DNA of 64,000 nt from an uncultured Cytophagales bacterium. Its GTDB lineage: Bacteria > Bacteroidota > Bacteroidia > Cytophagales > Cyclobacteriaceae. Shown here in pieces: positions 29,506 through 33,775 of this stretch. The notes beneath the pieces are model-generated. The model saw only the letters and a program-made list of their open reading frames with translations, made no database searches and was not told the DNA's origin. Position 1 is the first letter of the stretch; every line of letters starts with the position of its first letter. The translations under genes were made by a program, and so were the position numbers. The stretch covers positions 124,001 through 188,000 of the forward strand of contig CAJXNP010000004.1 in the NCBI GenBank assembly GCA_913057175.1, in the 5' to 3' direction.

Positions 29506-30651
29506 TTAATATTTTGCCATTTCCTGGTCGATTTCATCGGCCCAGGCGAGGATTCCACCTTTTAAATTATACAGGTTGTCGAATCCATACTTTCTTTTCA
29601 ATGCTTCAATTGCTTGTGCACTTCTGGCGCCGCTTCGGCAATGGACAACTACCTTTTTGGAAGAAGAAATCTTATCAATATTACTTGTTACCATTTTAAG
29701 CGGGATTAATTCTCCACCCAAATTGGCGATTTCATATTCGTACGGTTCGCGAACATCAATCAATTGATAATCTTCACCTTTTACCTGCATGTCATACAAC
29801 TCCTGAACACTGATCTCCTTAACTTTCTTTTCCTCTTTCGCATCTCCTCCGATTCCACAGAATTGCTCATAATCGATCAGTTTTTCAATTTTAGGAGTGT
29901 TGGGGTCTTTATGGAGTTTGAGAGTACGTGTCTCAAATGTTAAAGCATCAAACAAAAACAATCTGCCTGCCAACGGTTCTCCAACCCCCGAAATCACTTT
30001 GATCACTTCGTTTGCCTGCAAGCTTCCTACGATTCCCGGTAATACACCGATTACGCCGCCTTCAGCACAGCTCGGCACCAAACCAGGAGGTGGTGGAGTG
30101 GGGAAGAGGTCGCGGTAATGTGGTCCGAATGTCCCATCCTTAAATTGATGATTGAAAACCGAAACCTGCCCCTCGAACCTGAAAATTGATGCATAAACAT
30201 TGGGTTTACCCAAAATCACACATGCATCATTGACCAGGTAACGGGTTGGAAAATTGTCCGTTCCGTCTGCTACCACATCATAATCTTTGATGATTTCCAA
30301 CGCATTAGCGCTGGTTAGCTGAACATCGTAGGTTGTGAAATTCACATGAGGATTCAATTTTTCTAATCTTTCTTTTGCTGCCTCAACTTTGGGTCTTCCA
30401 ACATCATCGACAGTAAAAAGGACTTGTCGTTGCAAGTTCGTTTCATCTACCCGGTCAAAATCCAGGATGCCAATATTTCCAACACCTGCGGCAGTCAGGT
30501 AAAGCAAAAGTGGACTTCCCAATCCGCCTGTTCCAACGACAAGCACTTTCGCGGCTTTCAGCTTTCGCTGTCCTTCGATGTTAAATTCCGGAATGATCAG
30601 GTGTCTGCTGTACCGCTCCAGTTCTTCTTTTGAAAAATTTATATTATCCAT
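29506..30651 (-). CDS. Sulfur-carrier adenylyltransferase MoeB/MoeZ type with rhodanese domain
   Basis: The 381-residue enzyme activates the C-terminal Gly of a ubiquitin-like sulfur carrier by adenylation and loads sulfur on it. The E1-like domain (about 1-260) has VVGTGGLGSPLLLYLTAAG, GILDFDRVDETNLQRQ, DGTDNFPTRYLVND and the PSCAEGGVIG segment. The C-terminal rhodanese domain (about 280-380) carries the sulfur-accepting Cys in HCRSGARS. The same fusion is seen in mycobacterial MoeZ. It is the last gene of the operon with a carrier (12 bp upstream), a JAMM protease and a cysteine synthase. That context favours thiocarboxylate formation for amino-acid synthesis over molybdopterin. No other moa genes are here. 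Confidence 0.92.
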   Translation of the reverse strand: MDNINFSKEELERYSRHLIIPEFNIEGQRKLKAAKVLVVGTGGLGSPLLLYLTAAGVGNIGILDFDRVDETNLQRQVLFTVDDVGRPKVEAAKERLEKLNPHVNFTTYDVQLTSANALEIIKDYDVVADGTDNFPTRYLVNDACVILGKPNVYASIFRFEGQVSVFNHQFKDGTFGPHYRDLFPTPPPPGLVPSCAEGGVIGVLPGIVGSLQANEVIKVISGVGEPLAGRLFLFDALTFETRTLKLHKDPNTPKIEKLIDYEQFCGIGGDAKEEKKVKEISVQELYDMQVKGEDYQLIDVREPYEYEIANLGGELIPLKMVTSNIDKISSSKKVVVHCRSGARSAQAIEALKRKYGFDNLYNLKGGILAWADEIDQEMAKY

Positions 30652-30663
30652 TTTTAATTCATT

Positions 30664-30942
30664 TTAAATTGATCCTCCTGCAATGGCAGGGATGATACTA
30701 ACCACAGAATCTTCTTTCAAAGGTGTTTCTTCATTTTGTAACGATTTGATATCGTCATCACCCACGTAAATTCTCACAAAGTTTCGAATATTTCCTCCAT
30801 CGTCAAAAATATGTTTTTTCAATTCAGGGTAAACCTCCGTCAACTGTTCTATTGCTTCCTGAATATTGGTTCCGTTAGTTTGAATCGAACCTTCGTTTTC
30901 TGTAAATTTCCTTAGTGGTGTAGGAATAATCACTTTCGCCAT
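30664..30942 (-). CDS. MoaD/ThiS/CysO-like sulfur carrier with capped C-terminus (GG-SI)
   Basis: The 92-residue protein has the beta-grasp fold of ubiquitin-like sulfur carriers (KVIIPTPLRKFT, DDSVVSIIPAIAGG-type end). Active carriers end in Gly-Gly, which becomes a thiocarboxylate. Here two further residues, Ser-Ile, follow the diglycine (G89-G90-S91-I92). A protease must therefore expose the diglycine before MoeB/MoeZ can act. The JAMM gene 3 bp upstream in the operon is the natural candidate. The same logic is known for QbsE/QbsD and HcyS/HcyD. The cysM neighbour suggests that the thiocarboxylate donates sulfur for cysteine, as in mycobacterial CysO. Confidence 0.9.
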   Translation of the reverse strand: MAKVIIPTPLRKFTENEGSIQTNGTNIQEAIEQLTEVYPELKKHIFDDGGNIRNFVRIYVGDDDIKSLQNEETPLKEDSVVSIIPAIAGGSI

Positions 30943-30945
30943 CGT

Positions 30946-31383
30946 TTAATTAATTTTTATTGTTTTGTTTGTTATTTCTTCCTGATAAAATTTTTCGTTT
31001 TCGTCCAATTGCCATGATGTGACATCAACGGCTTTACCATCATTTACGGACACAATTACATATGAGAAAAATGGAAAGGCCTGTTTCAGATCATGCTCTG
31101 ATGGTCGGGCCGGATGATTAGGGTGTGAATGGTAAATGCCAATAAGTTTGAGGTTGTTTTCGTCTGCATATCTTTCTGCCTTCATGTAATCCGTTGGCTT
31201 TATCTCAAATCTTCTTCTCTGATCTCCTTCTTTGCTGTTGATTACTTTTACCGCTTCTTTAATTGTTCGTAAATCACCATCGTCGCCATATAAGAAGCCA
31301 CAACCTTCATTCGGATACGCCTCTTCCAGATCTTTGAGCATGGCTTGCAAAGATTCATCTGTGAATTTTACGGGAAGACTCAT
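30946..31383 (-). CDS. JAMM/Mov34 metalloprotease (Mec/HcyD-like)
   Basis: The 145-residue protein is a stand-alone JAMM zinc protease. The catalytic signature is complete: Glu26 in EGCGF, then HSHP with H85 and H87, followed by S95 and D98 in RPSEHD. Bacterial relatives are Mec, which cuts cysteine off CysO-cysteine, and HcyD/QbsD, which trim the C-terminus of a sulfur carrier. Here it sits between cysM and the GG-SI carrier (3 bp on either side), so it could do either or both. It is cytoplasmic. Function beyond the motif is inference from context. Confidence 0.92.
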   Translation of the reverse strand: MSLPVKFTDESLQAMLKDLEEAYPNEGCGFLYGDDGDLRTIKEAVKVINSKEGDQRRRFEIKPTDYMKAERYADENNLKLIGIYHSHPNHPARPSEHDLKQAFPFFSYVIVSVNDGKAVDVTSWQLDENEKFYQEEITNKTIKIN

Positions 31384-31386
31384 GTA

Positions 31387-32319
31387 TTAAAATAAATTAT
31401 TGATGACTTCACCATATTTCTCCGCATTGTCCGGTAATACCGTGACAATGACCCCTTCTTCCAATTCGTTGGCAACCCTTAATGCTCCGGCTATATTTGC
31501 TGCTGAAGAGGGGCTCACCAAAAGACCTTCTTTCATGGCCACTTCCTTGATCAACTCGAATGCCTGGTAGGTGTCAATTTCAAAATTCTCATGAGCCAGA
31601 TTTTTATCATAAATGGTTGGGACGATGGCCGTTTCCAAATGCTTCCAGCCTTCCAAACCGTGTAAGGCAGCATCCGGTTGAAGGGATGTCAGGTGAATGT
31701 TCGGGTTGTGTTCCAAAAGTTTTCTGCTTGTCCCAACGAAAGTTCCAGTTGTTCCAAGCCCGGCAACAAAATGTGTAATGGAATCTTTTGTTTGTTTCCA
31801 GATCTCTTCAGCAGTAGTGTGGTAATGGGCCTTCCAGTTGGAGTCATTCTGGTACTGTCTGGCGTAATAGTATTTCTCTGGATATTTTTGGAACAGATCT
31901 TCTGAAATTTCCTGGGCTTCGTCAGTTGAACCAAATTTTGATGTGTAAATAATTTCAGCCCCAAATGCCTTTAATATGGATTTTCTTTCTTCTGAGGCAT
32001 TTTCAGGTAGGCAAATAGTTACTTTAATTCCCAATGCAGCGCCGATAGCTGCATAGGCGATTCCCGTATTGCCACTGGTTGCATCCAACAGGCTTTTGTC
32101 TGAAGTTAATTGCCCATCCAAAATGGCATTTTTAATGATATTGTAAGCCGGTCTGGATTTAACACTTCCTCCCAACTGCTGCCATTCTAACTTGGCATAT
32201 ATTTTTACTTTTTGGTTTTCATGGAGGTTTTGAATGGGGAATAGTGGCGTGTGACCAACAAATTTTCCAACCTTATCCAGCCTTTCAACCAGTTTATAAT
32301 CTAATTCCTGAGTAATCAT
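31387..32319 (-). CDS. cysM: Cysteine synthase, CysM/CysK family
   Basis: The 310-residue PLP enzyme joins sulfur to O-acetyl- or O-phosphoserine. The PLP-binding Lys is K54 in GGSVKSRPA, the phosphate loop is TSGNTGIAYA, and the VAGLGTTGTFVG segment binds the cofactor phosphate. The GSVKSRPA motif differs from the common GSxKDR of CysK. It is the first gene of the operon with JAMM protease, sulfur carrier and MoeB-rhodanese, matching the mycobacterial CysM-CysO-Mec-MoeZ set that uses protein thiocarboxylate rather than free sulfide. Its start codon lies 18 nt after the stem of a strong terminator and downstream of a Cys-rich leader peptide, so expression is probably set by attenuation. A homocysteine-type product is an alternative. 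Confidence 0.88.
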   Translation of the reverse strand: MITQELDYKLVERLDKVGKFVGHTPLFPIQNLHENQKVKIYAKLEWQQLGGSVKSRPAYNIIKNAILDGQLTSDKSLLDATSGNTGIAYAAIGAALGIKVTICLPENASEERKSILKAFGAEIIYTSKFGSTDEAQEISEDLFQKYPEKYYYARQYQNDSNWKAHYHTTAEEIWKQTKDSITHFVAGLGTTGTFVGTSRKLLEHNPNIHLTSLQPDAALHGLEGWKHLETAIVPTIYDKNLAHENFEIDTYQAFELIKEVAMKEGLLVSPSSAANIAGALRVANELEEGVIVTVLPDNAEKYGEVINNLF

Positions 32320-32337
32320 TTTTGAGTTTTGTATAAT

Positions 32338-32375
32338 AAAAAAGGCCTTTCCATGTCGATGGAAAGGCCTTTTTT
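32338..32375 (-). terminator. Attenuator terminator hairpin before cysM
   Basis: In the transcript (minus strand) a 17-base arm at 32375-32359 (ending CCTTTCCAT) pairs perfectly with 32354-32338 across the 4-base loop CGAC. The second arm ends in six Us and is followed by ATTATAC. It is placed after the Cys-rich leader peptide and only 18 nt before the cysM ATG, so it would stop transcription before the operon. It may also serve as the terminator of the upstream lhgO gene. Confidence 0.85.
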
Positions 32376-32470
32376 CAGTTCTTTTTTATTATTTTTATAT
32401 AATATTCTTCCTCTCCATCAATATTTTGATGTTACAACAACAACAGCAAATACATATGTTGAAAAGGAAG
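32358..32470 (-). promoter_or_regulatory. Mutually exclusive RNA pairings of the cysteine attenuator
   Basis: Region 1 (32470-32461, CUUCCUUUUC, leader codons 3-6) can pair over all ten bases with region 2 (32416-32407, GGAGAGGAAG). Region 2, shifted by three bases (32419-32410, GAUGGAGAGG), can instead pair over ten bases, one of them G-U, with region 3 (32367-32358, CCUUUCCAUC), which is the 5' arm of the terminator. Region 3 paired with region 4 gives the terminator. A ribosome stalled on the Cys codons (32454-32434) would cover region 1 and free region 2 to form the antiterminator. A ribosome at the stop codon would cover region 2 and allow termination. Confidence 0.75.
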
Positions 32471-32478
32471 TTTCTCAT
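32395..32478 (-). CDS. Cysteine-rich leader peptide of the cysM operon
   Basis: This 27-codon frame begins ATG at 32478 and stops at 32395. It encodes MRNFLFNICICCCCCNIKI then LMERKNII. Six of the seven residues 9-15 are Cys (9, 11-15), five of them consecutive (TGC then four TGT). A Cys run of this kind in a short peptide directly upstream of a terminator and a cysteine synthase gene is the hallmark of a ribosome-stalling leader. The frame is preceded by AAAGAA, as expected for Bacteroidota translation starts. It has no homology-based support and rests on composition, position and the RNA pairing described separately. The product itself probably has no function. Confidence 0.8.
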   Translation of the reverse strand: MRNFLFNICICCCCCNIKILMERKNII

Positions 32479-32575
32479 TTCTTTAATGAATTTCACATTT
32501 CTGAACGCAAGATATTACAAATTGTTTACTCTATCTAATATTTATTATAAAAATGTAAACTATTGACCTTTTCTT

Positions 32576-33775
32576 TTATCCCAATTTTTTCAGTGCAATG
32601 TCCGAAACTGTATCTCCGATAGCCAACGAAGAAGTTGCAGCAGGGGAAGGTGCATTGCAAACATTCACGGCATTTTTGCTTTCGAGGATCATAAAATCAT
32701 CTAGCAATCCACCATTTCGGTCACACGCCTGGGCGCGCACCCCGGCTCCTCCGTGAACGAGATCTTTTGCTTCGATTTCCGGGATTAGCTGTTGTAAAGC
32801 CTTGGTAAAAGCTGCTTTGGAGAATGACCGGTACATTTCTCCCATGCCCGTTTTCCAGTACTTAGCTGCTACTTTTTGAAATCCCGGCCACATTAACGAT
32901 TCTATGAATTCTGCGGGATTGATCTTGGATTTAGTATAACCTTCACGTGCAAATGCCAAAACCGCATTAGGTCCTGCCTCAATGCCTCCACGCATCATCC
33001 TGGTAAAGTGAACACCTAAAAATGGGAAGGCTGGATCCGGTACCGGATAAATAAGGTTTTTCACCAGGTATTCCTTTTCCTTAGCTAACTTATAGTATTC
33101 ACCCCTGAAGGGAATAATTTTAACATCTAGTTTCTTTTCGACAAGGGAGGCAATTTTATCGGAATACAAACCAGCACAGTTTACTACCAGTTTCGTTTCA
33201 TAATCACCTTTATTTGTTTGAACAACGGAATGGCCATTTTGCTCATGGATCTTTAATACCTTTTCTTCCATTCGGATTTCTCCGTCCGCATGTTTGATTT
33301 TTTCGCCGTATTTTTCGGCCACCACTTTGAAATCTACAATTCCCGTTTGCGGCACAAAAAACCCTGCAATGCCATTCACATGAGGTTCGTATTCTTTTAG
33401 TTCTTCAGAATTTAGCTTCTTAAATCCGGTTAGCCCATTCTGAGCTCCTCTTTCATATAATTTTTCCAGTTGAGGGAGCTCACTCTCTTTGGTTGCCACG
33501 ACAATTTTTCCACACAATTCATACGGAACACCTTCTTCATCGCAGAACCTGACAAGTTTTTTATATCCATTAATACAATTAGTGGCTTTTAAACTTCCTG
33601 GTTTATAATAGAGGCCTGAGTGTATAACCCCGCTATTGTTTCCAGTCTGGTGAGCAGCCAGGGTTTTTTCCTTTTCGATCACCTTAATTTTAAGCTTAGG
33701 ATTTTTTTTCTTTAAGTTAAGTGCAGAAGCAAGTCCTACAATCCCTCCTCCTACAATTACGACGTCGTTTTTCAA
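32576..33775 (-). CDS. lhgO: L-2-hydroxyglutarate oxidase/dehydrogenase
   Basis: The 399-residue FAD protein oxidises L-2-hydroxyglutarate to 2-oxoglutarate and passes electrons to the quinone pool. It has the N-terminal dinucleotide fold VVIVGGGIVGLASALNL, the HQTGNNSGVIHSGLYY segment typical of LhgO, VNCAGLYSDKIA, and the C-terminal HGGAGVRAQACDRNGGLLDDF stretch near FAD. Length and motifs are standard. It is a single gene on the minus strand. The attenuator hairpin about 200 bp downstream may also end its transcript. The enzyme typically repairs the side product of malate dehydrogenase and related enzymes. Confidence 0.92.
   Translation of the reverse strand: MKNDVVIVGGGIVGLASALNLKKKNPKLKIKVIEKEKTLAAHQTGNNSGVIHSGLYYKPGSLKATNCINGYKKLVRFCDEEGVPYELCGKIVVATKESELPQLEKLYERGAQNGLTGFKKLNSEELKEYEPHVNGIAGFFVPQTGIVDFKVVAEKYGEKIKHADGEIRMEEKVLKIHEQNGHSVVQTNKGDYETKLVVNCAGLYSDKIASLVEKKLDVKIIPFRGEYYKLAKEKEYLVKNLIYPVPDPAFPFLGVHFTRMMRGGIEAGPNAVLAFAREGYTKSKINPAEFIESLMWPGFQKVAAKYWKTGMGEMYRSFSKAAFTKALQQLIPEIEAKDLVHGGAGVRAQACDRNGGLLDDFMILESKNAVNVCNAPSPAATSSLAIGDTVSDIALKKLG

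Follow-up and report, generated by a model that had tools for sequence, protein, structure and literature searches.

What governs the cysteine operon that lies near the middle of our window, a 64,000-nucleotide stretch of DNA from an uncultured bacterium of the Cyclobacteriaceae? Its first gene is preceded by a short reading frame crowded with cysteine codons and by a hairpin. The E. coli trpL and hisL leaders are ribosome-mediated transcription attenuators, and the arrangement raises the question of whether a device of that kind senses cysteine here. The leader peptide ORF occupies 32395-32478 on the minus strand and has 27 codons plus a stop; the peptide reads MRNFLFNICICCCCCNIKILMERKNII. 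Cysteine stands at positions 9 and 11-15, and the candidate sensor codons therefore span 32434-32454 (minus strand; Cys9 at 32454-32452, Cys11-15 at 32448-32434). A preliminary description of this DNA had reported the six-Cys frame at 32478-32395, and direct reading of the sequence confirmed every coordinate. The start codon is uncertain because the ORF listing opens the same frame at an upstream GTG at 32496.

The genes behind the leader are all on the minus strand. The first (31387-32319) encodes a PALP-fold cysteine synthase whose best model is cysM (TIGR01138), with a score of 304 bits that falls under the model cut-off of 394; among solved chains it comes nearest to cysteine synthase B entries, and the mycobacterial O-phosphoserine sulfhydrylase also matches. 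It is followed by a JAMM protease (30946-31383; Prok-JAB domain match), a ThiS/MoaD/SAMP-like sulfur carrier with the C-terminal end GGSI (30664-30942) and, by domain matches, a MoeZ-like E1 enzyme, a ThiF/MoeB adenylyltransferase with a rhodanese domain (29506-30651). Mycobacteria possess a CysM-CysO-Mec-MoeZ cysteine pathway that consists of a synthase, a thiocarboxylate-type carrier, a JAMM protease and a MoeZ-like E1. The same set is found together here, and by resemblance to that pathway we read the operon as a putative carrier-dependent route to cysteine. It differs from the mycobacterial system in having a candidate transcription attenuator and in its carriers, which mostly have residues past GG (44 of 47 not ending in GG). 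When the 47 carrier homologs were sorted by hand, 3 had GG as their exact end and 41 had 1 to 5 residues past the final GG; the end of the other 3 is not clearly readable. Such extensions suggest a possible further role of the JAMM protease in maturing the carrier.

Three pairings can form in the leader transcript. Regions 3 and 4 make up the intrinsic terminator (32338-32375, minus strand), a perfect 17-bp hairpin with a 4-nt loop and a T6 end, which finishes at 32338 with 18 nt to spare before the cysM ATG (32319). Region 2 (32407-32419, minus strand) starts 14 nt past the last Cys codon and can pair either through 32416-32407 with region 1 (32461-32470) or through 32419-32410 with region 3 (32358-32367), which gives helices of 10 bp each with some G-U pairs. 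The 2:3 antiterminator has an energy of -17.3 kcal/mol (p 0.003 against shuffles), and 1:2 has a p of 0.023 on the same kind of comparison. The terminator and all three pairings are thus present in the sequence as first described. As a whole, the 170-nt leader folds at -48.6 kcal/mol and its shuffles at -23.9 (s.d. 3.5; z -7.1, 0 of 200); the minimum-energy fold of the leader, corresponding to RNA without a ribosome, contains 1:2 and 3:4 together. When 32424-32351 is folded alone, to mimic a transcript whose Cys codons are masked and whose region 4 has yet to be synthesized, 2:3 forms (-17.0); when region 4 is included and the Cys codons are still masked, the terminator (-24.9) wins at equilibrium. 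The antiterminator is therefore the best structure before region 4 exists and the terminator the best after it, which matches what a kinetic switch requires. A known Rfam leader family can be rejected, as none of the 17 weak matches in a scan of 32200-32700 reached the gathering score.

The locus thus has the features of the trp and his attenuators: a cluster of regulatory codons, a 3:4 hairpin before the first gene, an exclusive 2:3 pairing and a suitably spaced region 2. We consider it very probable, judging from sequence, that the leader is a Cys-specific, ribosome-mediated transcription attenuator of this type. When Cys-tRNA is scarce, the ribosome would stall on Cys codons 9-15, covering region 1 and leaving region 2 free; 2:3 would then form ahead of the synthesis of region 4, and transcription would continue into cysM and the JAMM, carrier and E1-like genes. 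With ample Cys-tRNA, the ribosome would reach the stop codon, a position that would allow it to cover part of region 2, or alternatively it would leave and 1:2 would re-form. By either route, 3:4 would terminate transcription. The device itself is real and conserved and probably functional, and we infer its response to cysteine.

To assess conservation, we collected cysM orthologs from 196 family, 390 order and 395 class genomes, together with a scan of named genomes that yielded Reichenbachiella versicolor, a Bacteroidetes MAG and a Flavobacteriales MAG. The counts cover 51 orthologs (L001, L005-L026, L034-L036 and L107-L131) and leave out L027, where the contig stops within the gene, L037, which has 44 nt of upstream sequence, L038, at 30% identity, and a further copy in genome G128. 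The preliminary description had proposed looking for short Cys-rich frames in relatives, and these were readily found: an upstream ORF with at least three Cys in six residues is present in 43 of the 51 orthologs, against 56 of 1,020 shuffled upstream regions, and is accompanied by a terminator in 40 of the 51, against none of the 1,020 shuffles. A chance frame is thereby rejected. Neither element is present before the CysK-like paralogs (0 of 6 with leader and terminator), and a JAMM gene is nearby in 48 of the 51 orthologs with upstream sequence. The complete device is absent in 11 of the 51: eight have no Cys-rich ORF (L017, L034, L116, L117, L118, L119, L125 and L129, of which L034 is from Reichenbachiella), and three have the ORF without a terminator by the rule used (L123, L127 and L128). 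The ortholog L115 has a Cys leader and terminator and no JAMM gene in the fetched stretch. We also scanned for the Bacteroidota -7 promoter element, using a motif from general knowledge. An exact match precedes 9 of 40 cysM leaders, against 43 of 800 shuffles; with one mismatch allowed, the element occurs no more often than expected by chance (25 of 40 against 516 of 800), and by eye no exact match was seen upstream of the window leader.

The preliminary description had further proposed that the pairings would covary among relatives, and the extent to which they do so differs between helices. We aligned 39 of the 40 leader-plus-terminator loci (one leader each, L124 omitted). On this MAFFT alignment the 3:4 helix is strongly supported: 41 cells carry changes on both sides, where shuffles give 9.0 (0 of 500). 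Support for 2:3 on the plain alignment is modest (24 cells against 15.5; 6 of 500), and shifting the helix by +1 column raises the score slightly; variable spacers blur the register there. The 2:3 pairing was more clearly seen when partners were exchanged among 44 cysM leaders: regions paired with their own partners at -13.82 kcal/mol and with swapped partners at -9.84 kcal/mol (z -11.3, 0 of 20,000 permutations, which ignore relatedness among leaders). Removal of 8 near-duplicate loci, leaving 35 leaders, had little effect (z -9.8, 0 of 20,000). Taken singly, 28 of the 37 leaders from the family and the order have a 2:3 pairing stronger than in shuffles at p<0.05, as do 30 of 44 once class leaders are included, and the pairing is kept despite different letters in L009, L016, L036, L121 and L122. 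For 1:2, the leader set as a whole pairs better with its own than with swapped partners (z -5.0, 0 of 20,000; 1 of 20,000 in the 35-leader set), a weaker result than for 2:3, and of 37 cysM leaders just 9 reach p<0.05 individually. The spacing also follows the classical model, as had been claimed for the window: region 2 starts 9-19 nt past the last Cys codon, where the front of a stalled ribosome would lie, in 38 of 44 leaders compared with 20.5% of shuffles (median 14), and the stop codon lies a median of 7.5 nt past region 2.

At four loci (L015, L107, L108 and L112, of which L107 and L108 belong to one genus) two Cys leaders lie in series upstream of cysM, and each is followed by a terminator of its own. 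L036 has an additional, weaker unit that contains a Cys pair, and at L005 and L007 one Cys leader is followed by two successive terminator-like hairpins.

We searched the rest of the genome for further Cys leaders. A scan for (TGY)4 gave 35 hits, against 12 for the reversed control pattern; grouped by hand, the hits form 27 sites, of which 25 overlap ORFs at least 100 aa long. The two others are the cysM leader and a leader 5' of a nitrite/sulfite-reductase-family gene, which lies outside the window at about 40180-40315 of contig C10 of the same genome (G000; L062, L077). The reductase gene is followed by a uroporphyrin-III methyltransferase-like gene, so named from our own reading of the sequence, and by cysH. 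In the family, a leader and terminator are present at 22 of 30 sulfite-reductase loci (30 of 137 matching genomes), against 0 of 600 shuffles; 2:3 is significant at p<0.05 in 16 of the 22, and the swap test gave 0 of 20,000. In these leaders the stop codon comes a median of 22.5 nt after region 2, too far for a ribosome halted there to cover region 2, and the textbook fit is poorer than for the cysM leaders. In a phylum-wide set (L132-L160, the best 30 of 53 matching genomes) a Cys-rich ORF was found at 2 of 29 loci, and the sulfite-reductase leader is therefore mostly a family matter. Upstream of the cysCDN operon of the window's own genome (L074), an attenuator was looked for by eye and none was seen.

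Both types of leader use mixed Cys codons (202 TGT and 74 TGC in 59 leaders of the two operons), and thus the peptide is what is kept. Their runs are typically of 3 to 7 Cys, and in the cysM leaders the flanking residues vary widely. In the sulfite-reductase leaders, the motif R-[CR]-A-C-W-x-W-C-C occurs in 13 of 30 family loci (30 of 137 matching genomes), in which six different codons encode Arg and four encode Ala. As the count came from searching for the motif itself, only the codon variety is independent evidence; it suggests selection on this peptide beyond its Cys codons.

The conservation of a peptide could also mean that the Cys-rich product itself matters, as a thiol or metal sensor or as a nascent-chain arrest peptide, with codon stalling secondary. 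The sulfite-reductase motif and its varied codons favour this explanation. Around the Cys run, however, the cysM leaders vary while the run and the RNA pairings stay, and for the cysM device we give a peptide product little credence. A different objection concerns the hairpin, which could be no more than the terminator of lhgO, the neighbouring same-strand gene 98 nt upstream of the leader ORF, with the Cys frame arising by chance. Among orthologs whose fetched stretch lacks lhgO, 28 of 38 keep leader and terminator, as do 12 of the 13 that have the gene. The device is therefore more than the terminator of lhgO, and with the ORF-terminator pair in none of the 1,020 shuffles this explanation is scarcely credible; we reject it.

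Leader translation might instead govern ribosome loading on cysM, as reported for mycobacterial polycysteine sORFs. That Cys-run sORFs stand upstream of cysteine genes in mycobacteria (PMC1262725, PMC4633059, PMC13236596) speaks for such translational attenuation. At our locus, however, leader and cysM are 75 nt apart, neither adjacent nor overlapping, and a covarying hairpin with a T run ends shortly before the cysM ATG, an arrangement that suits transcription termination. We regard translational control as very improbable, and a mycobacterial-type attenuator without a terminator does not describe a locus whose terminator is present and conserved.

Transcription attenuation of the cysM operon, if true, would be a Cys-tRNA-sensing example in Bacteroidota, and would predict the conditions under which cells use the carrier-JAMM route to cysteine. 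The second Cys attenuator in the same genome, before the sulfite-reductase operon, and the tandem units at four loci are new here; together with the peptide-level conservation of the sulfite-reductase leader, they add to the interest of the system, and the natural tandem attenuators would allow series control to be measured. A broader scheme, which we hold only tentatively and think rather unlikely, is that in this group of Bacteroidota a Cys regulon (the cysM and sulfite reductase-cysH operons) could be run by leader-peptide attenuators alone, with some in tandem to steepen the response and with the sulfite-reductase leader adding a sequence-specific nascent-chain element, its R-[CR]-A-C-W-x-W-C-C motif, that would respond to something besides Cys-tRNA, such as the nascent chain itself or a cofactor state. 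In the open-access literature we found no Cys leader-peptide attenuator described in Bacteroidota, in agreement with the earlier statement that no example was known there for this type of operon.

Polycysteine leaderless sORFs of mycobacteria were reportedly described in Canestrari 2020. Cys leader peptides as such are already known (PMC1262725, PMC8632094). PMC13236596 and PMC9094748 cite the mycobacterial sORFs as translational attenuators that respond to cysteine, and Cys-rich uORFs have been seen by ribosome profiling (PMC4633059); the mechanism of mycobacterial Cys leaders is given as translational or unknown. Like our leaders, the actinobacterial and mycobacterial sORFs are short ORFs with Cys runs before cysteine-metabolism genes. 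They differ in that no obvious terminators were found for the actinobacterial leader peptides (PMC1262725), and in their reported translational attenuation, whereas our leaders have intrinsic terminators and competing antiterminators. If our reading is true, Bacteroidota and Actinobacteria use different devices behind Cys-run leaders, with a terminator in one and none obvious in the other.

Within Bacteroidota, leader-peptide attenuation has been suggested for amino-acid operons of Flavobacterium psychrophilum, in passages that do not name cysteine (PMC9723704). A close parallel for cysteine is uORFC-8-2, a proposed Cys transcription attenuator before cysS of Rhodobacterales, which likewise combines a uORF with tandem Cys codons, an intrinsic terminator and proposed Cys-tRNA sensing (PMC8632094). 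That uORF has two Cys codons and precedes a cysteinyl-tRNA synthetase gene in Alphaproteobacteria, whereas ours typically have 3-7 and precede biosynthesis operons in Bacteroidota; with a cysM-like gene downstream, the window leader is not a member of uORFC-8-2. With the trp and his attenuators it shares a leader ORF with regulatory codons, regions 1-4, the choice between terminator and antiterminator and a biosynthetic operon downstream. It departs from them in its amino acid, cysteine, in its Bacteroidota host, in the cysM-JAMM-carrier-E1 operon that it precedes, and in having four relatives with two complete units in series.
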